Shown: in pieces, positions 7,221-33,827 of the stretch | How positions within the stretch are numbered: position 1 is the stretch's first letter | Layout of the letters: each line of letters opens with the position of its first letter | IMG/VR virus record: IMGVR_UViG_3300032020_001004 | Location: 1 to 33,827 of that record | Direction: 5' to 3' (one strand) | DNA length: 33,827 nucleotides | Source of the DNA: a virus | Program-made: the position numbers and the translations under genes | Notes under the pieces: generated by a model | Told to the model about the DNA's origin: nothing | What the model saw: only the letters and a program-made list of their open reading frames with translations | Database searches by the model: none

Positions 7221-8273
7221 ATGGATAACAGAGCAGTCATCCATTATCCGATTAACGATTTCATCGGTTGGCAGAACAATGGAGAGCTTGTGCTTGTTAC
7301 CTATTTCCAGAGAAGAGACGTATGGGCCAAAAAAGCGAAGTCATCGTTAATTGATACGATCATGAGAAATCTTCCAATCCCGCTAATAATAATGCGTCAG
7401 AGTACAGATCCAAAGACGGGAAAGACTATTCGAGAAATCGTCGACGGCCAACAGAGGCTTCGTTCAATTTTTGAATTCTACAAAGGAGAGATTCAGATTT
7501 CGAAGACTCACAACAAAGAGCTGGCCAATCTCAAGTTCAGTGATATGACCCCCGCGTTGCAGAACAGATTTAGAGAGTATATGCTCGCCGTCAATGTGCT
7601 TTTTGGTGCAAACGATACCGAAATTCTCGACATATTTGGAAGGTTAAATTCGTACACGCTGGTCCTAAACAGTCAGGAGAAGCTTAACGCCAAATACCAC
7701 GGTGAATTCAAGACCTTCGCATATAGAGAAAGTGCCAAGTACCTTGATTTCTTTAGGGACAATAGAATTCTTTCAAACGCTCGGATAATAAGAATGGGTG
7801 AAGCGGAGTTCTTTTCAGAGCTGATTATTGCCATGATGGACGGGTTACAACATGGGAAACGTGTGGTTGGGACTTATTTCGAGAAATATGACGACGATTT
7901 TCTTGCTGAAAGCGAATTGGCTGACAAATTTTCCGCTGTGACAACACTCATCGAGAACATCTTGGATGAAAAACTCAAATCGACTATCTTTAGAAAGAGC
8001 AATCTGTTCTACAGCCTGTTTTGTGTATTTTACGACCTTCTCTATGGCATGAAAGGTCAAGAACGCCATCGGGTCACGTTTCCAAAGTCAACTTACAACC
8101 AGATAGTGAATATGTTGACGTTCTTGAGTGACCAGGTAGAGAAGGCCGTCCCAGATTCTAGGTTTGTTGAATTCAAACTGGCATGTACAGGCCATGTGGA
8201 CAATCTTAAAGAAAGGACTGTCAGACACAAACATATTAAGGCTGCGATTTTGGAGGCACTTGGAAAGACATAG
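7221..8273 (+). CDS. DUF262-family protein (ParB/GmrS-like fold)
   Basis: A 350-residue single-domain member of the DUF262 family, related to the GmrS half of the GmrSD type IV enzyme and to ParB-like nucleases. Hallmarks seen: YFQRRDVW (28-35), the signature VDGQQRL (74-80), and FGRLN (139-143). The rest is helical. Full-length GmrSD proteins add a DUF1524 HNH nuclease domain, which is absent here. DUF262 proteins are recurrent parts of antiviral systems, where the DGQQR pocket is thought to bind or hydrolyse nucleotides. The gene ends 11 bases before the RelA/SpoT-like gene and the two form a compact operon, so a joint function is likely. Its own activity is not known. Confidence 0.85.
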   Translation: MDNRAVIHYPINDFIGWQNNGELVLVTYFQRRDVWAKKAKSSLIDTIMRNLPIPLIIMRQSTDPKTGKTIREIVDGQQRLRSIFEFYKGEIQISKTHNKELANLKFSDMTPALQNRFREYMLAVNVLFGANDTEILDIFGRLNSYTLVLNSQEKLNAKYHGEFKTFAYRESAKYLDFFRDNRILSNARIIRMGEAEFFSELIIAMMDGLQHGKRVVGTYFEKYDDDFLAESELADKFSAVTTLIENILDEKLKSTIFRKSNLFYSLFCVFYDLLYGMKGQERHRVTFPKSTYNQIVNMLTFLSDQVEKAVPDSRFVEFKLACTGHVDNLKERTVRHKHIKAAILEALGKT

Positions 8274-8284
8274 GAAGATTCGCG

Positions 8285-9310
8285 ATGTCTTCCAAAAGAC
8301 AACGTTTGGTCATACTCTACAAAAAAAGCATTTCAGTCTATGAGAAACTAACAGAGGCAATAAAGCAGATATTGTCGAGCATTGTGGAACAGGAAAACGT
8401 GCAATGCGCGTTGCCTATTCAGGCAAGGACTAAGGACATAGCAAGTTTTTTGGAAAAGGTGGACAGAAAGCAGTATAAGGACCCTTTTTCGCAAATGACT
8501 GACCTAACTGGTTCACGGATTGTTCTCTACTTTGAAGATGATGTACGTTTCATGAAAGACGTAGTGGCGGACAAATTTGTCATCGATTTTGACAAATCCG
8601 TCGACAGAAAAGAAAAGTTGCCGCCTTCGCAGTTTGAATATGCTGGAGTGAACTACGTCGCTTCCCTACCTAAAGACCATCCCTTACTGGCTGAACATCC
8701 AGAATTCAAAGGCAAGCTGTTTGAGATCCAAATCATGACACTCTGTCAACTTTCATGGGAAGAAATGCAGAGAAAAATCGAGTACAAGGCCGAAGACCTC
8801 GTGTCTACTTTGGTAAGTCGTAGACTCTCAATGCTTTGCGCCCTTTTTGAGCTGGCAGACGTCGAATTTCAATATTTGATGCAAAGGGGAATTGAGGAAT
8901 TGCTTGGGCAGCCGATTACACTAAGGTCCATGCGCATTTACTCGAACAAAGCAAGAAGTATCGGTAAAGCCATTTCAGATGGAATGAAGACTGGCGTTCT
9001 TAGCAAGTCTCCGCCAGAAGAAGACGTGGGTTATCTGGATGAGTTATGTGATGCCTGTGTCGTGTTTGGACTCAAAACTTTAGCCGACTTGGATATGCTG
9101 CTGTCGAAGAATGAATCAGTTCCGCATATGTATGCGACCATACGAAAGTACCATGCCAACATACGCGCTGGACCGATAATGTTGGTGTTACTAGCAGTCT
9201 ATCATTCGAATAAGAAAGCCAATAAAGCATTCTTATCGAAGAGAAAATGGCCAGATGAAACGATACGGTTCATCGTCGATAGAAGCAAGAAAGCTGGAAG
9301 GCGGGATTAA
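8285..9310 (+). CDS. RelA/SpoT-type nucleotidyltransferase domain protein
   Basis: A 341-residue protein. Residues about 30-170 match the RelA/SpoT synthetase fold: R48-x-K50...S54..K57...R61 (RTKDIASFLEKVDRK), the metal-binding D73 in TDLTGSRIV, and E147 in FEIQIMTLCQLSWEEM. The key residues of the pyrophosphokinase site are therefore in place, although the usual S-x-H before the last strand reads GVN (121-123). There is no HD hydrolase, TGS or ACT domain. Instead a unique ~150-residue helical C-terminus follows. Archaea generally lack stringent-response RelA, so this is horizontally acquired. Small synthetases of this kind make (p)ppGpp or ppApp-type alarmones, or pyrophosphorylate tRNA in toxic versions. 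Coupling with DUF262 suggests a defence or toxin role. Confidence 0.8.
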   Translation: MSSKRQRLVILYKKSISVYEKLTEAIKQILSSIVEQENVQCALPIQARTKDIASFLEKVDRKQYKDPFSQMTDLTGSRIVLYFEDDVRFMKDVVADKFVIDFDKSVDRKEKLPPSQFEYAGVNYVASLPKDHPLLAEHPEFKGKLFEIQIMTLCQLSWEEMQRKIEYKAEDLVSTLVSRRLSMLCALFELADVEFQYLMQRGIEELLGQPITLRSMRIYSNKARSIGKAISDGMKTGVLSKSPPEEDVGYLDELCDACVVFGLKTLADLDMLLSKNESVPHMYATIRKYHANIRAGPIMLVLLAVYHSNKKANKAFLSKRKWPDETIRFIVDRSKKAGRRD

Positions 9311-9427
9311 CGGTCATTTTGAGAATTCACCGTTTTCAGGTTGAATGCCCATGCCCTGCAAGCTGATACGAGCTAGTCACCTTCTAGTCTTCTATATGAA
9401 AAGGTTAGGTGATTCCTGACGCCGAAT

Positions 9428-10216
9428 GTGGTAGTCTTCGACATTGAGACGTACAGAAATGATTGGAGGACTCCAAAAACTAGACGCGAGGCTTTTGATC
9501 CTGAAAAAAATGCGATAATAACAATTGGCCTTTTTGATGGAAGAAACCCCAGGATTTTTCCGGTCATTCAGGATCTGAACGAAGAGAAGTCGCTGGTCAA
9601 GTCTTTTCTCAAGGAGCTTCAGCAGAGGACTGAATTGATTATTGTTGGGTATAACATCCTACATTTTGATATTCCCTACGTCGTCCATAGGCTCAACTCA
9701 GCTGGACAAGAAGCCGATATGTCGCAGTTTAAACCTTTGGACCTGTTTTGGGTTTTGCCTTATTGGTTGCATAGCTCCTCTGATGGTCGGCGACTTGCAG
9801 GCAGTTTTCCTCAGCTGGGTAGTCTCTGGAAGTTTGAGGATGTTGTGAAGCTCATTCTTAAGCAAGAAGCAAATCCTTTCTCAAATAAGGATATCCCTCG
9901 TCTCTGGGAGATGAGACGTTTTGGTGATATAGAAAAACATCTGGAAAGAGATCTCGTTGATACTTACTCTCTTCTAGAACTGCCTGCGATCAAAGAAACG
10001 ATGGAACAGACCAAAAGGCTTGCTTCAGAGAAGCATCACTGCGAAGAATCCTGCCCTTACAGACGGCCTCTTCAGAAAACTAGTGAAAAGGCAAGCTACT
10101 ATTGTACACTTTTGCAGCATAATGTGTCAGGCGAGACAATACTGTCCGCAGTCGACGTGATTGACTTCTCACTGCCCAAGAGAGGCGTCTCATGGATGCC
10201 ATTATGCAGAAAGTAG
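9428..10216 (+). CDS. PolB-type 3'-5' exonuclease domain protein
   Basis: A 262-residue protein with a stand-alone DnaQ/RNase H-like exonuclease of the family B polymerase kind. Exo I is VVFDIET (D5, E7), Exo II is GYNILHFDIPYV (central D), and Exo III is RDLVDTYSL (final D), with about 50 and 95 residues between them. It degrades DNA (or RNA) 3'-5' with two metal ions. The C-terminus has CHCEESC-like cysteines (HHCEESCPYR) of unknown role. The start is the GTG, because an in-frame TGA lies just upstream. It is separated by 117 bases from the RelA/SpoT-like gene, in the same direction. It could belong to that unit or be a separate repair/defence nuclease. Confidence 0.75.
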   Translation: MVVFDIETYRNDWRTPKTRREAFDPEKNAIITIGLFDGRNPRIFPVIQDLNEEKSLVKSFLKELQQRTELIIVGYNILHFDIPYVVHRLNSAGQEADMSQFKPLDLFWVLPYWLHSSSDGRRLAGSFPQLGSLWKFEDVVKLILKQEANPFSNKDIPRLWEMRRFGDIEKHLERDLVDTYSLLELPAIKETMEQTKRLASEKHHCEESCPYRRPLQKTSEKASYYCTLLQHNVSGETILSAVDVIDFSLPKRGVSWMPLCRK

Positions 10217-10313
10217 TACACTGGCACACGGCGTGGCGGGACTCCTACAGCAAGATAGCAAATGTGATCCACCCAAATTCTCTTTCGAGCACAGATCCCT
10301 CTTAACAAGATAG

Positions 10314-10325
10314 TTTTATAATATC
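10314..10325 (+). promoter_or_regulatory. Candidate TATA box of the restriction-modification operon
   Basis: TTTTATAATATC lies about 60-70 bases before the methyltransferase ATG in a 169-base gap. Between them is a short upstream frame starting ATG at 10354 that overlaps the methyltransferase start out of frame, a possible translational brake. The assignment is by sequence similarity and position. Confidence 0.45.
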
Positions 10326-10385
10326 TGATTGAGCTACTTATCCTAGAAAGTGAAATGGTGCTTCATGCAAGTGGCGAGCTAAAGG

Positions 10386-11354
10386 ATGGAGTCAACCGAA
10401 GTCACATTCATTGATCTATTTGCGGGGATAGGTGGTTGTAGAATAGCATTTGAGAGGACTGGGTGTAGATGCGTATGGTCCTCCGACTGGGATGCTGATG
10501 CCCAAAAAGTCTACGAAGGAAATTTCGGCGAACGTCCATTTGGTGACATAACGAAAATTCCCAGCAGCGATATACCTGACCACGATATTCTCGTCGCCGG
10601 ATTTCCTTGCCCCTCGTTCAGCATAATTGGAGACCGAAAAGGACTCAAGGATCATAACGGAAGCCTATTCTTTCAAATCGAGAGAATACTCAAAGATAAG
10701 AAGCCACGCGCCTTCTTGCTGGAAAACGTCAGAGACCTCAAAAACCACAATCGCGGAAAAACTCTGAAGATTATCCTTGACCGCCTCAATGAGATACCCT
10801 ATTATGTATATTGGAAAGTGCTCAATGCCTTAGACTTCGGACTGCCGCAAAAAAGGGAAAGAATCATGATTGTAGGCTTTCGAGACAATTACAAGTTTGA
10901 ATTTCCTGAAGGACCAAGAAATCGAAAGGACTTGAAGGGCATACTTGAGGATGACAAAAAAGTTCCGAAACAGTATTGGGCTTCAGAGCATATCAAAAGC
11001 AACCGTGCCCGGTCAGTTAGGGGCAAGCAGATCTTTCGTCCCTCTATCTGGCACGAAAACAAAGGCGGCGATATCGGTGTACACCCGTACTCATGCGCTC
11101 TGAGAGCTAACGCGTCCTATAACTATCTTCTCGTAAATGGAGTTAGGCGCCTCACTCCCAGGGAAATGTTAAGATTGCAAGGGTTCCCCGAAGATTTCCA
11201 GATCATGGGTTCATATACGGTTATTCGCAAATTGGTGGGAAACAGCGTTCCCATTCCGATGATACAAGCCGTTGCGGAGAACATGCTGCAATCCATGAAG
11301 TGTGCTGAGACCATCCCTGTCCTGAAGCAAGCAAAACTGTTGGAGGCTTCTTGA
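10386..11354 (+). CDS. DNA (cytosine-5) methyltransferase
   Basis: A 322-residue C5 methyltransferase, modification half of the restriction system. Motif I is DLFAGIGG (10-17); motif IV is GFPCPSFS with catalytic C75; motif VI is ENVR (113-116); motif VIII is QKRERI (155-160). The target-recognition region is about 180-245, followed by the conserved RRLTPREMLRLQGFP (254-268) and motif X GNSVPIPM (285-292). All are complete and in canonical order, so the enzyme should be active. Specificity cannot be read directly; the companion nuclease resembles HaeII, whose site is RGCGCY. Its stop overlaps the start of the nuclease gene. The start is fixed by an in-frame stop just upstream. Confidence 0.95.
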   Translation: MESTEVTFIDLFAGIGGCRIAFERTGCRCVWSSDWDADAQKVYEGNFGERPFGDITKIPSSDIPDHDILVAGFPCPSFSIIGDRKGLKDHNGSLFFQIERILKDKKPRAFLLENVRDLKNHNRGKTLKIILDRLNEIPYYVYWKVLNALDFGLPQKRERIMIVGFRDNYKFEFPEGPRNRKDLKGILEDDKKVPKQYWASEHIKSNRARSVRGKQIFRPSIWHENKGGDIGVHPYSCALRANASYNYLLVNGVRRLTPREMLRLQGFPEDFQIMGSYTVIRKLVGNSVPIPMIQAVAENMLQSMKCAETIPVLKQAKLLEAS

Positions 11355-12436
11355 TGTCAGATGCTAAGCTTGCACTGGACAAAATCATCAGCAAAGGACG
11401 TGTTCAACTTTATAAGCCGATTCAGATTGCCGAAATACTTCACCGAAGTAGAGTCTCCAAAGACATGGATTTGGACGACCTACAGAGTTATCGAAACAGA
11501 AGTAAGCGGTGGAGGGACACAGTATCCCTAAGGCTAGTTGGAAACATCAGCACTTCCAGCCAGAAATTTCAGGACAATCTTTTTGAAGAAAATGCGATGC
11601 TCCCTCAGCTACTCAAGCAACTGGAAGCAATCAACATTTCCAGTAGGGGCATGGTGGAGAACTACATCTATCATCAATGCGAGCAAAGATGGAGCCTTCT
11701 CCTTCAAATAGATGATTACTTGAGCAGGACAACCACCGATATTTTCAAAGTAGAAGAAATGGTCAACTGGTTCACGACTGAACCCGGTCTGAAAAAAAGC
11801 ATCGACAAAGTATACGAGATTTCTGTCCACGCTCTTTTTTCTACAATTGTAGAGGAATTGAAAGCTAAGGTGTCTCTTAAAATCGAGAACCCGGACCCCC
11901 AGATACTTAGCGATTTCAAAGAGTTCATCCGGCTGGTTCTGGGCATCAAGCCGAATGAGACAAAGATATCGCTCCCTGCTATGCTTTATCGGGCTGGAGT
12001 CACCAATGCTGCTGATAAGGGAATCGATATATGGACGAACTTTGGCCCGGTCGTGCAGGTTAAGCACTTGAGTCTAACTAAGGACGAGATCGAAGACATT
12101 GTGGATTCAATAAAATTAGCAGAACGCATCATCATAGTCTGCCTAGACGCTGAAAAAGACGCGATTCGTTCGGTATTGAACCAAATTGGCTGGAGCAGCA
12201 GAATTCAGGGGATAATCACCTTGAGTGATCTGAGAAACTGGTATGATATCTGCCTTAGGAAATACGCATCAACAATGGGAAAGAAAGTGTTGAAATGCCT
12301 ACGAATTGAATTCAGAAGAGAGTTTCCCATGGTTACAGAGATAGACGCATTCTTCAAGGAACGAGGCTATGACGCTGAAAAGCTTACTAGCGAATGGAAG
12401 ATCAGCGGCCAGGCGAAATTATTTGGACTCGGTTAG
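11351..12436 (+). CDS. HaeII-family type II restriction endonuclease
   Basis: A 361-residue protein. The N-terminus (residues about 10-75, with KGRVQLYKPIQIAEILHR and LQSYRNRSKRWRD) is what I recall of the HaeII restriction endonuclease family. A PD-(D/E)xK-like core is visible at 226-238: D226 in GIDIW and QVK (236-238) on the next strand. The gene overlaps the methyltransferase by four bases and runs into the Vsr gene, the standard order of a self-contained type II system. It cuts unmodified incoming DNA at the site protected by the methyltransferase. The family call rests on remembered sequence pattern; the nuclease role is well supported by context. Confidence 0.8.
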   Translation: MMSDAKLALDKIISKGRVQLYKPIQIAEILHRSRVSKDMDLDDLQSYRNRSKRWRDTVSLRLVGNISTSSQKFQDNLFEENAMLPQLLKQLEAINISSRGMVENYIYHQCEQRWSLLLQIDDYLSRTTTDIFKVEEMVNWFTTEPGLKKSIDKVYEISVHALFSTIVEELKAKVSLKIENPDPQILSDFKEFIRLVLGIKPNETKISLPAMLYRAGVTNAADKGIDIWTNFGPVVQVKHLSLTKDEIEDIVDSIKLAERIIIVCLDAEKDAIRSVLNQIGWSSRIQGIITLSDLRNWYDICLRKYASTMGKKVLKCLRIEFRREFPMVTEIDAFFKERGYDAEKLTSEWKISGQAKLFGLG

Positions 12437-12875
12437 CAAAGAAACTCGATCTAAGATTATGAGTAGGATAAAGGGCAAAGACACCAGGCTTGAAAAACAA
12501 TTCTACGCTGCATGGGCCTTAAGGAACATCAAAGAGATCGAATGCAACCCTTCAGATGTCTTGGGAAAACCGGATTTCGTGCACAGAAAATCGAAAACAG
12601 CAGTCTTTCTTGACAGTTGTTTTTGGCATGGATGCGCCCTGCATCTCAGGATGCCTCATTCCAATTCTGACTATTGGAAAGAGAAGATTGAAAGAAACAA
12701 AAAAAGAGACAACCTTGTCACACAAACTCTGAGAAAGGAAGGTTGGTCCGTGATAAGAATCTGGGGGCATTCATTGAAAAGTAGATCCGATTTCGAAAAA
12801 TGGGCCGAAAAAGTTGCGGGAAGCATGCTGAAGAAATCAGCTTCGTCTCAAAAGAGAGAAAGAACAACTATCTGA
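12423..12875 (+). CDS. vsr: Very short patch repair endonuclease (Vsr)
   Basis: 150 residues from the TTG at 12423, chosen because the family begins right there (DSVSKETRSKIMSRIKGKDT matches the usual SPEQRSRNMSRIRGKDT); an ATG further upstream lies deep inside the nuclease gene. Core motifs: LGKPDFV, then AVFLDSCFWHGC with the catalytic Asp on the strand and the Zn-binding Cys/His residues, then YWKEKIERNKKRD and the final strand WSVIRIWGHSL. Vsr nicks next to T:G mismatches that arise when 5-methylcytosine deaminates, and is a common companion of C5 methyltransferases. It overlaps the end of the endonuclease gene by 14 bases. Confidence 0.93.
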   Translation: MDSVSKETRSKIMSRIKGKDTRLEKQFYAAWALRNIKEIECNPSDVLGKPDFVHRKSKTAVFLDSCFWHGCALHLRMPHSNSDYWKEKIERNKKRDNLVTQTLRKEGWSVIRIWGHSLKSRSDFEKWAEKVAGSMLKKSASSQKRERTTI

Positions 12876-13634: not shown

Positions 13635-15158
13635 CTAGCGCGCAGCGCGCGCTTCTCCGCTCCAAAACAAGTAGACCTTCGATTGCAATAGGAAACCGCA
13701 AATCTTGATCAATACTACAAGCTTCTCCAAACTTGCCTCCTGAATCTTCTTTCTATAATCTTCGCTCCGACCATATGGAAGATTGTAAGAGAAGCTTTTC
13801 AAGAACCGCGGGTGCCTGGACTTCAGGAAAACATCTTTTATTCTTTGAACCTCCAACGATGAAAGAGATTCAACCTTACCTTGCACGTATTTCAGGCTAC
13901 CTAAAATCTCAGTATTGAACTCCAAGTCCTTCAGAACCGCAAGGATCCTTAACGCTTCCTTCGAGGGCTCCTGCACAGCGACTCTTTGCATGCCAGCCTT
14001 CTCAGCGAAAGGATTGTACTTCGCCATGACCGCCGACATTTCCACGTACTCCGTCCCGGCTGACGGCAAAGTCTCTCTGATCAATTTTGCTCCGAGCCCT
14101 ATGGTACGGTATTTTGGGTGCACAACAACACGGCTAATATTACTGAGCTTTGCGTTCACCTCTTTCATTCCGGTCTTCGGCAACACCAGTCTGCGACCGA
14201 AACACGTCGACGGCGGATAACTATACACGATTACACCGCACAGTTCTTGCCATCTCCTCTTCAAACAGAAGATTTTCCTCGGCGCCGGAACTCGGTGACT
14301 TCGGTAATGAAAGGGCGCTAGGGCTCGCCAGTCAACCATTGAGCCCTCTTCAACATACATTTGCTTCACGAGAGTGCACTCAGCAACTCGAATATTCCTG
14401 TGATACTTGACCTCGATCTCTTCTCCGAACCGCTTGTGAACATGAACGTTCGGCTGGAGGTCCTGGAAAAGATCTCTATGAGTAGTGGCTGCCAAAACAG
14501 TCTTGCCCTTTTGCCTGGCGCACTTCTGCAAATTGTAAGCCACGATTCTTGCAGTATCACGATCCAAGGTAGCGGCAAACTCGTCTAGAATCCAGAACTG
14601 AGCCTCACTCTCCAAGAGTTTCGCAATCTTGTACCGGTATTTCTGACCGTCGCTCAGCTCATTGAAGGTCCTGAGAAAGAGAAACGCATCCGACAAGCCC
14701 ACTTTGCTCAGGAGATCCAGGCCCTCTTCAACAGTCTTGCCAACTGTCTCAATCAACGGTTTATCCAGGTCCACGTCGACGTCTGCAATATCAAGAGCCT
14801 CAGCCCCCAGATCCTGCTTGACAGCTCTCAGTAGCACACTCTTGCCGCTGCCGGAGTCTCCGGTAACATACACGATATCCCCGACGCCTATCTTCAACTC
14901 AACGTCCAAGACCGTGAACTTGTGCTCTTCATCGACGCCAAGCCCGAAGGCCTCAGCAACAACCGTTGTCCTGGGAGTCAACTTCACAGCTGTCGAATAG
15001 CTTATGTTGAAACTGAATTTGCCCTGACTTCTATCGTACGTTCTGCGAATCTGGTGAACATGCCAGAACTCACGTCTACAGGTCCTATTGGTTCCCGTCA
15101 CTTTTCTTTCAGCCTGCTTCCGCCTAACCCGATCCAACCGCACCTTCCCTATCCTCAT
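13635..15158 (-). CDS. ABC-type ATPase fused to GNAT-like acetyltransferase domain
   Basis: A 507-residue protein of the type classed as ABC ATPase fused to a predicted acetyltransferase (COG2401). The ATPase part has Walker A GDSGSGKS (100-107), signature LSDGQ (168-172), Walker B FWILDEF (187-193) and H-loop H227 in TTHRD. The C-terminal part has the GNAT acetyl-CoA motif VVVHPKYRTIGLGAKLI (344-360). It has no membrane segments, so it is not a transporter but a soluble ABC protein. Function is unknown; relatives occur in archaea and in viruses. It is the last gene of the minus-strand virion operon, behind two membrane proteins. The ATG is preceded by AGAGGT. The last codons overlap a GC-rich hairpin (13637-13653). 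Confidence 0.85.
   Translation of the reverse strand: MRIGKVRLDRVRRKQAERKVTGTNRTCRREFWHVHQIRRTYDRSQGKFSFNISYSTAVKLTPRTTVVAEAFGLGVDEEHKFTVLDVELKIGVGDIVYVTGDSGSGKSVLLRAVKQDLGAEALDIADVDVDLDKPLIETVGKTVEEGLDLLSKVGLSDAFLFLRTFNELSDGQKYRYKIAKLLESEAQFWILDEFAATLDRDTARIVAYNLQKCARQKGKTVLAATTHRDLFQDLQPNVHVHKRFGEEIEVKYHRNIRVAECTLVKQMYVEEGSMVDWRALAPFHYRSHRVPAPRKIFCLKRRWQELCGVIVYSYPPSTCFGRRLVLPKTGMKEVNAKLSNISRVVVHPKYRTIGLGAKLIRETLPSAGTEYVEMSAVMAKYNPFAEKAGMQRVAVQEPSKEALRILAVLKDLEFNTEILGSLKYVQGKVESLSSLEVQRIKDVFLKSRHPRFLKSFSYNLPYGRSEDYRKKIQEASLEKLVVLIKICGFLLQSKVYLFWSGEARAAR
13637..13653 (-). terminator. GC-rich hairpin at the end of the virion operon
   Basis: AGCGCGC-AGC-GCGCGCT is a perfect 7-bp inverted repeat with a 3-base loop, overlapping the stop codon of the ABC-ATPase gene. 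It could end or protect the late transcript. There is no U-run directly after it, so the terminator call is tentative. Confidence 0.35.
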
Positions 15159-15225: not shown

Positions 15226-15621
15226 CTAACTTGTTTTTGCCGACACGATCTTAGCGATTGCACGCCGGAACACCTGGACCACAAACAACAGGACAACGCC
15301 GTATGATATGGGGATGAATTGCGCTACAAGAATCATCAGAGGTTCATAGTAGAAGAAGGTCTCCCCGAATTTCTGCAAGCTGAATGTATCGTTCTTTTTC
15401 AGGACGTTTTGCATGAAACCGCTTAGAGTGCCGTCGATTACCGTTGCCAATAACCCGACAAACGCCGGGTTCTCAAGAAGCTTGTCCAAGCCATTCCCCA
15501 AGTTTCCCAACGCAGAAACCTGGATCACACCGCCCCAGATCAAGCCCTCAACCACCAAGAAAACGGCGGTCACAGCCAAGATCAGCAGAGCAAATCTACT
15601 GTCAATTTTCTTTTCCGCCAT
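15226..15621 (-). CDS. Membrane protein of the late operon (holin-like position)
   Basis: A 131-residue protein with a short charged N-terminus (MAEKKIDSR), a strong transmembrane helix (about 10-31), a weaker hydrophobic segment (about 52-70), and a third membrane helix (about 92-118) followed by a basic tail. Family not recognised. The start is fixed by an ideal GGAGGTGAT ribosome-binding site five bases upstream, suggesting high expression. Together with the preceding 84-residue gene it forms a pair of small membrane proteins at the end of the tail module, where many viruses keep holins. No lysin gene accompanies them, so release by another route is possible. Confidence 0.65.
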   Translation of the reverse strand: MAEKKIDSRFALLILAVTAVFLVVEGLIWGGVIQVSALGNLGNGLDKLLENPAFVGLLATVIDGTLSGFMQNVLKKNDTFSLQKFGETFFYYEPLMILVAQFIPISYGVVLLFVVQVFRRAIAKIVSAKTS

Positions 15622-20106: not shown

Positions 20107-20505
20107 CTAGTACGTTCCAAGCGTCAATGATGCGCCTTCGCCAGAACCGTTCTCGATAACGATACCGGATTGTTCATCTCGCCAGCCATGGTGGAAAATG
20201 ATTGCGTTAGACAACGTGTATTTGGGCTGTCCTACAGGAGTGCTGTTTGCAGGTCCGAGAATGATCGACATCTTTGTTCCAGCAAGAACCTGAGCTGCAT
20301 GCGTCGTGTCGATGAACATTTTCTCGAAACTAAATTTGAAACTCTTGTTTCCACTCTCCAAGACTGCAGGGACGTCGCTTGTGAATTTGTAGTCTTTGAT
20401 AACGTCTGCATCCATGTCGAATGTGACGCCTTTGATGTAGCCAGCTTCAGCACCGTTGATTGTGATACTGCCGTTTCGTCCTATGCCTGGTGTTGTATTT
20501 ACCAT
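20107..20505 (-). CDS. Major tail tube protein
   Basis: A 132-residue all-beta protein (GSITINGAEAGYIKGVTFDMDADVIK, FKFSFEKMFID, KMSIILGP, YTLSNAIIFHHG, ending GASLTLGTY). The pattern of a short beta-sandwich that recognises a 'generic shift' (GVTFDMD...DYKFTSDVPAVLESG) is that of siphovirus tail tube proteins. It stands between neck genes and the tail assembly chaperone, exactly where the tube gene is expected. No sheath gene accompanies it, which argues for a non-contractile tail. It should be among the most abundant virion proteins. Confidence 0.8.
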   Translation of the reverse strand: MVNTTPGIGRNGSITINGAEAGYIKGVTFDMDADVIKDYKFTSDVPAVLESGNKSFKFSFEKMFIDTTHAAQVLAGTKMSIILGPANSTPVGQPKYTLSNAIIFHHGWRDEQSGIVIENGSGEGASLTLGTY

Positions 20506-21924: not shown

Positions 21925-22809
21925 TCAACCAGCTATGACAAGTCTTCGCACGTAGGGCCTGAGCATGCCCTTGAGCTCTTCATTGAAAGCCTCAACCGCA
22001 ACAAGTTTGACGGCCATCTCGTTTACCTGGACCTGTGGGCTCACTTTCCGCTGGAGGATCCCGTGAAGAGCATTTGTGCACATTTGAATGCAGACGTACT
22101 TGATATCGTCCGGTGTTGACGCGTACCCGGCAGTATATGTAATCCTGACACTTTGCTCGTGGATTGCGGGAACTTTGTTGACAAGCATGAGCTGCCCTGC
22201 AGAGAGATTCATGAGGTAATCAGGTTCGGTTACTATCACCCAGTTTGCCGTGATTCCGTACCCTTGATCGTTGTACTCGACTTTTGAAACAGAGAGAACA
22301 GGATAATACAAGAGACTCATCCATGGATACTGAAAATCATGAAACTCGTTTGTGAATGCGAGCCCGTTAATAACAAAGAAACCAGTCGGGACCCGACAGA
22401 AATTCTCGATCATCGACTGCGCAAGGACAATTAGACTGTCTAGGAACGTGGTGAAATCTGAATCACTGGCATAGTTCAAATCTGTGTACGCGATTTTGCT
22501 GTGTGCTTTGATATCAGTGTTTGTGCAATATGTAGCAGATCCGACAGCGCTAACACCTGCAACTACAACTTCATATACGACGCCCCACGAGAAAAGATGG
22601 TCCGAAAGATCCATCGAACTCAAGTTGATCTTGAAGTTGGTTGCTCCCGGATCGCTAGGCCAACAACTGCGACCGCCAAGGTCATCAAGCGGAGTGATGC
22701 TGATGTCTGCAAGAGTCGGGGTTGTTGAGAGCCCATGTGGCACAGTGACAGACGTATTGCCCGCGGTGATTGTTGCTGTTCCCGTTTTCGTTGAATAGAC
22801 AGTTACCAT
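21925..22809 (-). CDS. Head-tail connector (gp6-like) with N-terminal lectin-like beta domain
   Basis: A 294-residue protein. Residues about 115-294 match phage head-tail adaptors of the gp6/gp15 kind: helices DSDFTTFLDSLIVLAQSMIENF, the loop CRVPTGFF, strands, and the helix IKYVCIQMCTNALHGIL, ending in a helical arm. Residues 5-90 form a separate beta domain with the pattern TATITAGNTSVTVPHGLSTTPTLADISITP, seen in small tail lectin-like (H-type) domains. Typical adaptors are only ~100 residues, so this is a fusion. A similar beta motif ends the deacetylase-like protein encoded next door. AGGAGA precedes the ATG by eight bases. Confidence 0.75.
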   Translation of the reverse strand: MVTVYSTKTGTATITAGNTSVTVPHGLSTTPTLADISITPLDDLGGRSCWPSDPGATNFKINLSSMDLSDHLFSWGVVYEVVVAGVSAVGSATYCTNTDIKAHSKIAYTDLNYASDSDFTTFLDSLIVLAQSMIENFCRVPTGFFVINGLAFTNEFHDFQYPWMSLLYYPVLSVSKVEYNDQGYGITANWVIVTEPDYLMNLSAGQLMLVNKVPAIHEQSVRITYTAGYASTPDDIKYVCIQMCTNALHGILQRKVSPQVQVNEMAVKLVAVEAFNEELKGMLRPYVRRLVIAG

Positions 22810-22821
22810 TCTTCTTTTCTC

Positions 22822-24570
22822 CTAGGTCAACTGAGGATAGTCGATTCTTTTCTGATAGAGAGCATACCAATAGAGCGTTCTTGCGTCAACTGCTCCGACC
22901 GGCGTTATTGTGCCCGCGTTATTGATACAGAAGTCTATTTGGAAGTGCGTCCCATTCATGGTCAAGATCGTTGGCTGCAAGACCCAAGCTGTCGAGTTAA
23001 TGTATGCTGTCCCGCTGATTGAGACGAATGTTACGTTTGGTGTGACCCCTAGATTGTGTTTGATCCAAGATCCGTTGATACACGATGTCTGATTGCCCAA
23101 GTTCTCAAGTCTGATATCTGCACCTGCCACTCTCTGTTTGACTTGGAGATTCAGGTAGTAATCGATGTCTCGCCAAGTCAGGACCGGCAAACCATAGCTG
23201 CTCACGTTTCCCATGCACTGATTAAATACAGTGCTCGTCATTGTTCCATGAAACGTCAAGAAAGCAAGTTCCCCGTTTGACCCTGAACCTGTACTGTTGA
23301 CTGCGTACCAGGCAGCAGCGGCAATGACCCCACCCTCAGCTTTTGTCCCATTGAAGTTTGTTTCTGTCGGGAAGTAGCAGCTGAAGATATCTGAGATGTA
23401 ATTCCACGTTTGATTAGGCCATGATTTGTAGTTGCTCCAGCCAATGTAATTGTAGTATTGCCGCACCATCTCAAAATTCGCTGGATGCCCTGATGGAAAG
23501 CCCATCATATCGATACGGACGTTGAGGTTTCGTTCAACCCAGTCTTTGCTTTGCCGGTATTCTTGATCTTGGTCAGCAAGGGTTATTGTTGCTCCCGTCA
23601 TGTCCTTGCTGAGGTATCCGTGGCTGTAGAAACTCCAGCCGGCATCACGCATTTCTTTCAGATTTGTGAGAGTTATGTAGGTAGTGTTGGTTACTCCAGC
23701 CTGTTCTACCCAGCGAGAAACAACTCCTTCGCTTCCTCTGAACCCCCAGATCGTTGTCATGTTCTTGAAATACGTACTGTATTGGATGTAGAGGGTATCA
23801 TCAAAACAGAGCATAAACGCTGCTTTGCTCACAGCATTCAAGTAGCCTTGAACTTCAATGTCTGCGTAAGGCGGCACATTCGGATAATAGTTCAGGGTAA
23901 AGTTGCCTCTGAGAACGACTTTCTCAGTTCCTTTCGTCCCGTTGTTCAGGTGAGTGAAAGCATACTGAACGGCGAGCGTCTGATTCGTGCTTTGATAGGC
24001 GATTTGTCCGGTGCTGCAGTTCTTGACTTTTGCAGTTGTACCGTCAAAATCGACGACGTATGCAACGAGCTGATAAGGATTGGCGAGGACGTCTGTTCTG
24101 TTCTGACCATTGAAAAAGAAACTGTTTGAGCCATAATAATTCCTTGTTCCCTGGTAGTCCTCCAAGATCAGAATGTTAGTTCCATAAACGACCGTGGGAG
24201 CTAGAGTGCAGCCTTTCAAGAGGATTGTTCCGCCGCTCGTCAGATTTCCGACGGCAGCCATTTGGACGGCAGTCTTGTTAGTGTCAAACCAATTCAGCCA
24301 GCCATTCGTCCCGTTTTGCAAGCAATAATAGGCATCGACGGGGCTGATGATGTAGTCAAAAGGTTTCTGAAGCCCACTCAGACTACTGTTCACCGGTGTG
24401 TCAAGTCTATTCTCGATCGAACGAAGTCTCTCTTCAATCGAGATATTAATTGAGATACTAGCTCCAGCATATGCAGCGACAGCTCCACAAAGCAGAATAG
24501 CACATAACATCGCTGTTTTGGACCATGTTAAACCGTTAAGACTGATGCTTTGTCCCTTACTTTCCACCAT
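22822..24570 (-). CDS. Membrane-anchored surface/tailspike-like protein with polysaccharide-deacetylase fold
   Basis: 582 residues from the ATG at 24570, which has GGTGA eight bases upstream and overlaps the previous stop. A transmembrane or signal-anchor helix (19-37) is followed by a short amphipathic helix, a beta-rich region (about 95-245, beta-helix-like: GGTILLKGCTLAPTVV), a NodB-type deacetylase domain (about 250-445) and a C-terminal lectin-like beta domain (about 490-575). In the NodB part CFDD (255-258), SHGYLSKDMT (H317), FPSG (358-361) and FHG (H441) mark the catalytic motifs, but the second metal His of HxxxH is Ser. About 21 N-glycosylation sequons point to an extracellular protein. 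It lies inside the head module, between capsid and connector genes, and may bind or trim host-surface glycans. Confidence 0.75.
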   Translation of the reverse strand: MVESKGQSISLNGLTWSKTAMLCAILLCGAVAAYAGASISINISIEERLRSIENRLDTPVNSSLSGLQKPFDYIISPVDAYYCLQNGTNGWLNWFDTNKTAVQMAAVGNLTSGGTILLKGCTLAPTVVYGTNILILEDYQGTRNYYGSNSFFFNGQNRTDVLANPYQLVAYVVDFDGTTAKVKNCSTGQIAYQSTNQTLAVQYAFTHLNNGTKGTEKVVLRGNFTLNYYPNVPPYADIEVQGYLNAVSKAAFMLCFDDTLYIQYSTYFKNMTTIWGFRGSEGVVSRWVEQAGVTNTTYITLTNLKEMRDAGWSFYSHGYLSKDMTGATITLADQDQEYRQSKDWVERNLNVRIDMMGFPSGHPANFEMVRQYYNYIGWSNYKSWPNQTWNYISDIFSCYFPTETNFNGTKAEGGVIAAAAWYAVNSTGSGSNGELAFLTFHGTMTSTVFNQCMGNVSSYGLPVLTWRDIDYYLNLQVKQRVAGADIRLENLGNQTSCINGSWIKHNLGVTPNVTFVSISGTAYINSTAWVLQPTILTMNGTHFQIDFCINNAGTITPVGAVDARTLYWYALYQKRIDYPQLT

Positions 24571-25000
24571 TCTGTTCACCATATAACTGGATGATTTCCA
24601 GGAGGGCCGTAACTTTCTTGCCCATCCAAGACTGAAGTTTCTCAAATCGCCTGTCTTTTCCCATCGCCAAAAAATACACAGTCACAGGCACAACCGGAGG
24701 CAACTTGCCCTTAATGATCTTGGGCCACCTGCACACTCCGCAGGATCCATGACGCCGCTTCAAATTCTGACCGCACACATCAACACAGTCAGGCACGCCA
24801 AAAAGGCGCATCAAGAAGGTACGTTTGACAGGCTTTCGCTCTGGAACCGAATAGACAGCAAAACTATCGCCCTTCTCATCGACGGCGATTAGAACGTTAG
24901 GATTCAACTTTAGCATGACTGTTAGACCATGAGCCAGAGCTAGGAGCTCTGCGCGACTCATTTTAGTAAGGTCCAACAATTTCAACCATTCCTGAAACAT
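24557..25000 (-). CDS. Hypothetical zinc-binding protein of the head module
   Basis: A 147-residue protein. Cysteines C72, C76, C87 and C90 (PDCVDVC ... HGSCGVC) look like one zinc site in a basic context (KRRHG). The N-terminal part has a helix and a small beta unit (NVLIAVDEKGDSFAVYSVPE); the C-terminus is helical (RRFEKLQSWMGKKVTALLEIIQL). Family not recognised. It stands between the capsid gene and the surface-protein gene, overlapping the latter by 14 bases, so it is probably a structural accessory or an assembly factor. Confidence 0.6.
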   Translation of the reverse strand: MFQEWLKLLDLTKMSRAELLALAHGLTVMLKLNPNVLIAVDEKGDSFAVYSVPERKPVKRTFLMRLFGVPDCVDVCGQNLKRRHGSCGVCRWPKIIKGKLPPVVPVTVYFLAMGKDRRFEKLQSWMGKKVTALLEIIQLYGEQNGGK

Positions 25001-25051: not shown

Positions 25052-26146
25052 CTAGCTTTGAGACGTGATTTTCTGGATGCTGTTGGCTACGCCGCCGATT
25101 GACCCGCCGTCCATATGGGTGATAACATAGTTCGAAAGTTCAGTAGGAACCCTGTAGAACTCGACAATGGGCTCTTCTTGGAGACCAGCCCAAACCGCGC
25201 TAACGCCTTTCGTTCCCACGTAAGCCAATGTCTTCACGCCTGCAGGACAGACAGTGTCCCAATACGGATCTGCGTACCAGTCGAGACCAAGGACCTTCGG
25301 AATCTTGCCAGTAGTGAACAAATCTATGAGGGCACTGTAGAATTGCTTGACATCGTAGCTTGTGGTGAATGCGTTCCACATGTTCGCTGGGGAAGTTGCG
25401 ATGAAATCGGGTTGGAATCCGTTGTTAGCGTTGTTCTTGATTGCCGTGGCAACTTCAGCAAACGTGAGGCTTGTGCCCGAAGCAGCACTCAAACTTCCGC
25501 CTGCAGCTGCCGAGAGCGCTACAGTGACATACTTGAAAATGCCGTTCTTAACACATGAACCGTGCACGCGGCCCATTTGTTCAACGAAGTTTATAGCTGA
25601 AGTGTTGGCAAGCAGGTCGGAGATCTGTGTGACTTTACCGAAGGCCTTCATGGTGATTGTTCGTTTCGTCAGACTTGGATCTGCAGCTGAGAGCGCAGAG
25701 CCTTCAGTCCACTCATCAAATCCTGGCTGAGTAATGATTTGAGTGTCAACTGTCTTGCCTGAGCCTTTCGGAACCGTTGCAGGCATGCATAGATCTCGTG
25801 CATCCACCAAGCTCTTAAGTTCCAACAGGGCTCGGGACTGCACCATTGTGGGCAGTGCTATGTTGCTCGTGCTCGTGAGCAACTCCTTAACAGTCATTTG
25901 TGATTGATCGCTTTCATAGAAAGTCTGAAGCTTCTCGGTGAGGGCCTTCTTTTTCTGAAGTGTGAAGAGCTCACGCATCGTAAGTTTACCATACAGTCCC
26001 AGGTCTTCTTTGTTGACAAGCTTTTCCTCAAGCTTTGCCAAACGCTCGTTGATCCGCTGGTCAATCGACTTGACGAAGGTGTCTAAATCGAAAGCTTCCT
26101 TGTTTTGACTCGTATTATCATTCTCCTTTCTGTTTACTTCCCACAT
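25052..26146 (-). CDS. Major capsid protein, HK97 fold
   Basis: 364 residues. An N-terminal charged helical delta-like region (about 15-80: FVKSIDQRINERLAKLEEKLV) precedes the HK97-type core: N-arm and spine around LLELKSLVDARDLCMPATVPKGSGKTVDTQI, the E-loop near 140-160 (EWTEGSALSAADPSLTKRTITMKAFGKVTQISDLL), P-domain helix, and A-domain (PDFIATSPANMWNAF, KVLGLDWYADPYWDTV, VSAVWAGLQEEPIVEFYR). These are regular features of the fold. The position right after the protease/scaffold gene agrees. The protein would form the icosahedral shell and should be the most abundant virion component. The N-terminal segment is likely removed by the adjacent protease on maturation. Confidence 0.9.
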   Translation of the reverse strand: MWEVNRKENDNTSQNKEAFDLDTFVKSIDQRINERLAKLEEKLVNKEDLGLYGKLTMRELFTLQKKKALTEKLQTFYESDQSQMTVKELLTSTSNIALPTMVQSRALLELKSLVDARDLCMPATVPKGSGKTVDTQIITQPGFDEWTEGSALSAADPSLTKRTITMKAFGKVTQISDLLANTSAINFVEQMGRVHGSCVKNGIFKYVTVALSAAAGGSLSAASGTSLTFAEVATAIKNNANNGFQPDFIATSPANMWNAFTTSYDVKQFYSALIDLFTTGKIPKVLGLDWYADPYWDTVCPAGVKTLAYVGTKGVSAVWAGLQEEPIVEFYRVPTELSNYVITHMDGGSIGGVANSIQKITSQS

Positions 26147-32726: not shown

Positions 32727-33773
32727 TTACAGAATTGACTCCCTGTTCATCGGAAATGCTGTTGTCGCCCTTATGTCGTCAGTACCTAGCACAAATTGTG
32801 TGATCCTGTTCAGTCCTATTCCGCATCCAGAGTGCGGGACTCCACTGTTCTCGTAGAATTCAAGGTACCATTTGAAGTCATCTATGCTTCCGCCTTTCTC
32901 GACAAGCTGTTTGAACATCGATGAGTCAAGTAGTCTCTCGCGGAGTTTCTCGTGTCTGTACTCTCTTTCTGCTGCGCCCACTGCTTCGCCGCTTGAAGGC
33001 ATAAGCAGGTCTGCACTGTTGACGACTGCTGGGTTCTCATCGTTTTCTTTCATGTTGAAGAATTTTATGTTCTTCGGGTAGTGTGTGATGAAAAGCGGTT
33101 GATTTCCTGTGACAGTGACTAGCAGTTTTTCGTGATTGTTTTTGAGGTCGTCGCCCCATTGGACTCCGAGGTCTGAGAGCATTTCGACAGCTTTTGTGTA
33201 TGTCATTCTCTGGAAAGGTTGTTTGACTCTTCTGAGTCTTTCTATGTCGACGTTGAGAAAAGTGAGCTCTTCAATGCTTTCTTTGAGTGATAAGTCTATC
33301 ATTGAGCATATTGTGCTTTCAATGTGATGCAAGAGTTGTTCGAAGTCTCCTGTGAATTCCAGTTCGATCAGAGTGAATTCGGTCAAGTGTCGTCCGTCAA
33401 CCATGGATTCTGCGCGGAAGCTGGGTCCGATACACCATACTTTCTTTAGGAATGGTGTCAGAACTTCGAGGTAGAGTTGTCCGGTTTGGCTAAGGTATCT
33501 TTTGGGTCCGAAATAGTCTATTTCGAACATCGTCGCGATGTTTTCGCATGCACCTGTTGCCTTTGTCATGTGTGGAACTACGACTTCGCTGAAACCTTGT
33601 TTTTCGAAATATTCTCTGGCGCCTTTCAGCAGACTTGACTCGATCTTCACAATTGCGTGCAGTTCCGGTGCAGGCAGGAGTCTGTGCCTATTGTTTGTGG
33701 CTTTCAAAAGGTCAAGACGAATTTGTTTTCCGTTTGTTTCGGTTTTTTGAATCTCGCTATTTTGGGTCTCCAT
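32727..33773 (-). CDS. AsnRS-like asparagine synthetase (AS-AR type)
   Basis: 348 residues from the ATG at 33773, because the 18 extra residues upstream do not resemble the family. It is a class II aminoacyl-tRNA synthetase catalytic domain: motif 2 PSFRAESMVDGRHLTEFTLIELE (about 117-139) and motif 3 GCGIGLNRITQFVLG with TTAFPMNRES at the end, the Asx-specific pattern. The N-terminal OB-fold that binds the anticodon in AsnRS/AspRS is missing. That is the hallmark of the archaeal enzyme shown to make asparagine from aspartate and ammonia with ATP rather than charge tRNA. A host housekeeping gene, outside the provirus. Alternative: an AsnRS paralogue of other function. Confidence 0.85.
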   Translation of the reverse strand: METQNSEIQKTETNGKQIRLDLLKATNNRHRLLPAPELHAIVKIESSLLKGAREYFEKQGFSEVVVPHMTKATGACENIATMFEIDYFGPKRYLSQTGQLYLEVLTPFLKKVWCIGPSFRAESMVDGRHLTEFTLIELEFTGDFEQLLHHIESTICSMIDLSLKESIEELTFLNVDIERLRRVKQPFQRMTYTKAVEMLSDLGVQWGDDLKNNHEKLLVTVTGNQPLFITHYPKNIKFFNMKENDENPAVVNSADLLMPSSGEAVGAAEREYRHEKLRERLLDSSMFKQLVEKGGSIDDFKWYLEFYENSGVPHSGCGIGLNRITQFVLGTDDIRATTAFPMNRESIL

Positions 33774-33827
33774 GACCCGCACCGACAATCCTAGCTCCAC
33801 TCTAATAAATCTTTTCCACAATTTCAT

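Follow-up and report, generated by a model that had tools for sequence, protein, structure and literature searches.

Where does a viral protein act when it combines a membrane anchor, many N-glycosylation sequons and a polysaccharide deacetylase domain and yet is encoded among the head genes of a tailed virus? Such a gene lies in a 33.8-kb IMG/VR virus record (the window, meaning the whole stretch analyzed). The initial annotation of this DNA offered three roles for the product: a glycosylated capsid decoration, a receptor-binding protein, or a superinfection-exclusion protein displayed on the host.

Gene context and host

The late block of the window is encoded on the minus strand. It runs from a 119-aa gene in the small-terminase position through the large terminase, the portal, a gene in the protease position and the capsid candidate to a 147-aa gene, the gene under study, a head-tail adaptor, tail-completion-type genes, tail-type genes and a short tape measure (Table 1). 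The site that lies between this 147-aa gene and the adaptor is hereafter called the slot, and it was compared in about 25 related contigs, which are given L numbers. The portal and terminase were assigned through Pfam and PHROGs and both lie upstream of the slot gene. The initial annotation had the frame, length and place of the gene right, to which the minus strand can be added, as well as its neighbors, with terminase, portal and capsid-type genes upstream and the phrog_442 head-tail adaptor downstream. The longest open reading frame of the slot gene, 22822-24645, begins with TTG and encodes 607 aa. The 582-aa form begins at the ATG of position 24570; this start has a ribosome site of the GGTGA type and overlaps the 3' end of the upstream 147-aa gene. 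Because the slot gene overlaps a gene of the capsid block, its late expression is expected.

Table 1. Features of the slot and its neighbors in the window
Feature	Position	Strand	Remarks
Major capsid protein candidate	25052..26146	-	Phage_capsid_4 Pfam match below its cut-off
147-aa conserved gene	24557..25000	-	Bounds the slot on its upstream side; shares 14 bases with the slot gene
Slot protein (membrane-anchored, sequon-rich, NodB)	22822..24570	-	582 aa
Membrane helix	24460..24516	-	Residues 44-62 of the 607-aa frame; conserved in 7/7 homologues
Coiled-coil-like stretch and conserved NSS/NST sequon behind the helix	24376..24459	-	From alignment; coiled coil predicted from sequence
Middle region	23845..24375	-	Less conserved; start resembles a beta-helix cap (predicted)
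NodB polysaccharide deacetylase domain	23137..23844	-	Residues 268-503; motifs CFDD, SHGYLSKD, FPSG, LTFHG
Ser346	23608..23610	-	Replaces the second metal-binding His of MT2; invariant in 7/7 homologues
C-terminal domain	22825..23133	-	Residues 505-607; conserved in NodB-type slot proteins
Knob domain (tailspike-type / H-type-lectin-like)	22528..22809	-	Fused to the head-tail adaptor N-terminus; AlphaFold pLDDT 88
Head-tail adaptor core	21925..22527	-	phrog_442

The other half of the window encodes an integrase, ParB, a GmrSD-type protein, a RelA/SpoT-domain protein and a HaeII-type restriction-modification set with Vsr. Within it, genes for GmrSD/NsnA-like and RelA/SpoT-domain proteins, an exonuclease, a C5 methylase, the HaeII endonuclease and Vsr are clustered at 7221-12875 (+) as defence-like cargo. 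The late half also contains an ABC-type ATPase fused to a GNAT acetyltransferase-like region (13635-15158, -), and a 366-aa viral protein at 32727-33827 (-) is asparaginyl-tRNA-synthetase-like and related to asparagine synthetase A families. Matches to the portal came from haloarchaeal viruses in 15 of 18 records, the top terminase score was to Halogranum tailed virus 1, and the integrase is closest to archaeal XerA. Two scans of genome contigs with the slot protein and the capsid protein as queries found no provirus or host genome. The host of this tailed virus is likely an archaeon, and probably an uncultured one.

Anchor, sequons and the NodB domain

The signal anchor read in the initial annotation is supported by a single N-terminal membrane helix (KD 2.07 over 19 residues) that all seven homologues conserve. 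Some 21 N-glycosylation sequons had also been noted, and exactly 21 were counted in the 582-aa form, all of them beyond the membrane helix and thus on one side only. The 607-aa form has 22 sequons against 8.3 expected, and none of 5000 shuffles reached this number. Compared with the 61%-identical proteins of L006 and L007, 19/21 and 20/21 sequons are kept, versus 18/28 and 20/29 of the other Asn residues. The Ser or Thr at +2 is kept at 20/21 sites, whereas other Ser and Thr residues are kept at 45/76 or 44/76 (p 0.001 and 0.0007, Fisher test). In each of these two homologues, 7 of the 20 kept +2 sites carry a Ser/Thr swap that leaves the sequon intact, and such swaps occur at 15/49 kept sites of other slot variants. 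In pooled structural (capsid and tail) genes of 50-75% identity, 41/78 sequons are kept and swaps are seen at 0/47 kept sites, with control sites partly repeated across genomes. Chance sequon richness was ruled out by the shuffles and the conservation tests. On this evidence, the sequons of the slot protein are selected as sequons.

When 293 open reading frames of at least 150 aa were ranked by sequon excess, the top ten consisted of slot proteins and one C-anchored surface-type protein of L019. The latter (3-1736) is a repeat protein of 577 aa that is anchored at its C-terminus and has 24 sequons against 9.4 expected; it is encoded upstream of the protease gene and represents a different type of surface protein, and the slot of L019 has no member of the anchored family. 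Two membrane-helix proteins of L045 (5085-6308 and 8619-10704) are likewise enriched, with 13 versus 4.2 and 29 versus 12.1 sequons, and their genes lie close to an anchored slot-type gene, within a gene context of another kind. Some beta-helix variants (L016, L021) are weakly enriched. As a counterpoint, the small 132-aa tail-type protein at 20107-20505 (-) of the window has 5 sequons against 1.2 expected; it would be a cytoplasmic virion protein, yet it is sequon-rich.

The archaeal oligosaccharyltransferase works outside the membrane. Only sequons in use would be expected to evolve in the way described above, and their use requires export because the transferase acts outside. Therefore, the slot protein is probably exported and glycosylated rather than being part of a virion built in the cytoplasm. 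Structural proteins of the archaeal tailed virus HRTV-DL1 do stain as glycoproteins (PMC10384203), so sequons are also compatible with a location in the virion, which keeps a virion spike among the alternatives.

The deacetylase domain was found again by database searches: the one-genome Pfam search scored it at the curated cut-off, all seven homologues matched PF01522 (best E 1.9e-6), and the polysaccharide deacetylase PDB 6dq3 was matched at E 1.2e-5 and 3.3e-7. The Asp-Asp of MT1, the Pro of MT3 and the His of MT5 that characterize NodB/CE4 enzymes are present, and MT2 reads SHGYLSKD or SHGWYSID in all seven homologues, without the usual two His. Motif alignment with phage G gp673 and HFTV1 gp31 confirmed the His-to-Ser change that had been pointed out in the initial annotation. 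One possible but somewhat doubtful explanation is that the domain is a dead enzyme kept as a glycan-binding module, which would make the protein a simple adhesin or decoy; it concerns the head only and is compatible with any localization. The loss of the second metal His to Ser in all seven homologues agrees with it, and NodB pseudoenzymes have precedent (PMC10967932). Against it, the catalytic Asp pair, the first His, the Asp six residues past it and the MT5 His are all invariant in the seven homologues, a different enzyme fold occurs in at least one sister head, and the NodB domain has the lowest dN/dS of the slot protein (0.04-0.13). As purifying selection is strongest in this most constrained part, the domain is not decaying. 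Across the slot gene, dN/dS is 0.07-0.14, which ruled out a decaying pseudogene. The domain may be an altered-metal-site enzyme or a binding module. At the sequence level, the NodB fold family, the membrane helix and the selected sequons of the slot protein can be regarded as established.

The remaining parts of the protein agreed less closely with the initial annotation. Its beta-helix-like region amounts at most to a cap-like stretch before NodB, full beta-helices being found in sister proteins. The lectin-like end is at best partly supported: the profile match of the C-terminal domain to the knob domain of the adaptor is not significant (E 0.067), and an identical fold for the two is not claimed. 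The full-length AlphaFold model built from the seven homologues had a pLDDT of 29.

Exchangeable heads and the adaptor knob

The slot protein is not unique to the window but belongs to a family. Across the related contigs, the slot either lacks a gene or encodes a protein in which the anchor is retained and the head differs. No slot gene is present in L010-L014 and L017, which makes the gene accessory; L012 lacks it, yet keeps an 85%-identical protein after the tape measure (g346). NodB slot proteins occur in the window, L002-L005 and L006/L007, the last two even though their capsid gene has no match to that of the window. Beta-helix heads (PF13229/NosD) are found in L016/L028, L035 and L027, and beta-helix-like or unassigned heads on the same anchor in L003 (a second gene), L018/L029 and L021/L037. 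The L030/L032 slot encodes a metallophosphoesterase (PF00149, E 3e-10) with a beta-helix-like region, and L043, L044 and L046 encode fibre/collagen-like proteins of up to 1154 aa. All anchored slot proteins have in common the anchor, the coiled-coil-like stretch and an NST/NSS sequon. The window and L021 differ in their heads with capsid genes 96% identical, whereas the slot proteins of the window and L005 are 91% identical with capsid genes at a dS of 2.25. Therefore, different heads are exchanged on a common anchor, and slot genes are transferred from one backbone to another. The sequence comparison thus establishes swappable heads and accessory status.

Other genes were observed in and around the slot. 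Small exported or holin-like membrane proteins occupy slots without an anchored gene in L033 (10467-10880), L034 (10375-10722) and L019 (6145-6606), and one lies beside the anchored gene in L043 (5265-5705); the window gene at 15226-15621 is similar to the holin-like ones. Extra proteins are encoded between slot gene and adaptor in L016 (12618-14496), L018 and L035, among them a 115-124-aa protein that matches phrog_1084 and, weakly, tail fibre families. The large terminase gene of L034 (866-2873) is split by a 217-aa open reading frame, possibly an intron or insertion.

The adaptor of the window has an extra N-terminal domain of about 90 aa, the knob, which is absent from the adaptors of empty-slot viruses. 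In L016, L018 and L035 the knob is a separate gene of 85-99 aa, in L006, L007, L043 and L046 it is fused to another protein, and a true copy inside the slot protein was seen only in L003. The best Foldseek matches of the knob model were C-terminal domains of tailspikes, namely the Pam1 tailspike in the PDB and pectate-lyase tailspikes in BFVD (E 4e-6, TM 0.72), with weaker structural matches to H-type lectins. A knob, in many cases joined to the adaptor, was present in 15/15 complete carriers of the slot gene and 0/9 complete non-carriers, a contrast inflated by relatedness and adjacency. Between the window and L005, the slot gene and the adaptor have dS values of 0.55 and 0.30, respectively, compared with 2.25 for the capsid gene and 2.49 for gp10, and dS is saturated or high on both sides of the pair. 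The low dS of slot gene and adaptor between such flanks indicates that both moved as a unit. Judging from these comparisons, transfer of the slot gene together with the adaptor and its pairing with the knob are established.

Where the protein may act

The explanation we prefer is a membrane-tethered tailspike-like protein that modifies or masks surface glycans of the producing cell, and taken as a whole it has not quite an even chance of being correct. Its parts differ in strength: export and display on the host surface are probable, and modification or masking of the receptor on the producing cell is a tentative proposal, rather below even. In this view, a membrane anchor has taken the place of the particle-binding end of a tailspike-like protein. 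The protein would be co-expressed with the late capsid genes, a timing suggested by the overlap with the 147-aa gene, and would sit in the host membrane with its C-terminus facing outward, where the host would N-glycosylate it. The swappable head, here NodB, would modify or cover a surface glycan used for attachment by the virus or a competitor, and the virus-producing cell would then no longer capture progeny or superinfecting particles. The related tailspike-type knob on the virion neck, at the N-terminus of the adaptor, may be the partner in specificity. Modification or masking of an attachment site agrees with the expected late co-expression, with a gene that is accessory and paired with the knob, and with glycan-active heads that can be swapped. 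Among the three roles first proposed, host-surface display fits best because the sequons are selected and the helix is retained in all variants. A glycosylated capsid decoration is less probable, though NodB capsid turrets are proven in HFTV1 (Haloferax tailed virus 1).

Alternatively, the protein may be a spike on the head or neck of the virion, similar to the HFTV1 NodB turret and held by the hydrophobic helix or the adaptor knob, which binds or trims glycans at adsorption. Tailspike-like heads and a gene within the capsid block are as expected of a virion protein, the knob co-occurs with the slot gene, co-transfer with the adaptor might reflect a physical link to the neck, and the turret head gp31 of HFTV1 is itself a NodB protein from the head-connector region. 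We nevertheless consider a spike unlikely: gp31 has neither a membrane helix nor sequon enrichment, cytoplasmic assembly explains neither the helix that is always kept nor the selected sequons, and the same tail genes are retained in viruses without the slot gene.

Late remodelling of the envelope, in which an enzyme on the outer side of the membrane, to which it is tethered, would trim glycans of the S-layer or matrix to allow virion exit, has a similarly low probability. It would agree with the late expression expected from the overlap with the 147-aa gene, with enzyme heads of several kinds and with the holin-like membrane proteins within or adjoining the slot in L019, L034 and L043, but the gene is missing from many relatives and several heads are plain beta-helices or fibres without a known enzyme motif. 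Superinfection exclusion in lysogens, as the initial annotation had it, is possible, and a classical moron expressed from a provirus would suit both the integrase encoded in the window and an accessory, swappable gene. Such a moron is quite improbable, as the start of the slot gene overlaps the upstream capsid-block gene, which apparently leaves no space for a promoter of its own and speaks for late expression. The slot gene and the knob could together form a paired receptor system like the haemagglutinin and neuraminidase of influenza, in which the knob on the virion neck binds a glycan and the matching enzyme, tethered to the host membrane, destroys or masks this receptor, the two being exchanged as a cassette; we regard this as unlikely.

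The recognition and alteration of host surfaces by viruses of uncultured archaea is an almost unknown field. The slot provides a natural head-swap panel (deacetylase, phosphoesterase, beta-helix and fibre) on one anchor, paired with a virion knob, and suggests that tailspike parts may serve not only on the particle but also on the host membrane. The idea that tailed viruses have receptor-destroying surface proteins thereby becomes directly testable. In the open-licence papers searched, we found no account of tailspike-like proteins that are membrane-tethered and sequon-selected and have exchangeable heads.

Phage T5 Llp is an example of a virus-encoded membrane protein for receptor masking or superinfection exclusion, and such proteins are small. 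Like them, the slot protein is virus-encoded and accessory, with a predicted location on the host surface. To our knowledge, no receptor-masking or exclusion protein is a tailspike-like glycoprotein with swappable enzyme heads. With the CE4/NodB deacetylases (PDB 6dq3; phage G gp673) the slot protein shares PF01522, MT1, the first MT2 His, the MT3 Pro and MT5, but it has Ser for the second MT2 His. NodB on an archaeal tailed virus is already known from HFTV1, the closest precedent, in which gp31 forms a trimer on the turret base of the virion and is proposed to act on host surface glycans (PMC12494034). Both NodB proteins belong to tailed viruses and are encoded in the head-connector region before the tape measure. 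However, both metal His are present in gp31, which has 3 sequons where 4.3 are expected, and the slot protein is not a soluble, helix-free turret head of this type; a direct profile match between the two was not found, so that the link consists of the NodB motifs only. With phage tailspikes and fibres (cyanophage Pam1 and the pectate-lyase type) the cassette shares the predicted C-terminal fold of its knob, and the sister slot heads share right-handed beta-helix or fibre/collagen-like bodies. The slot protein differs from them in that its N-terminus is a membrane helix and not a particle-binding domain, its sequons are selected, and its gene lies between the capsid and adaptor genes.
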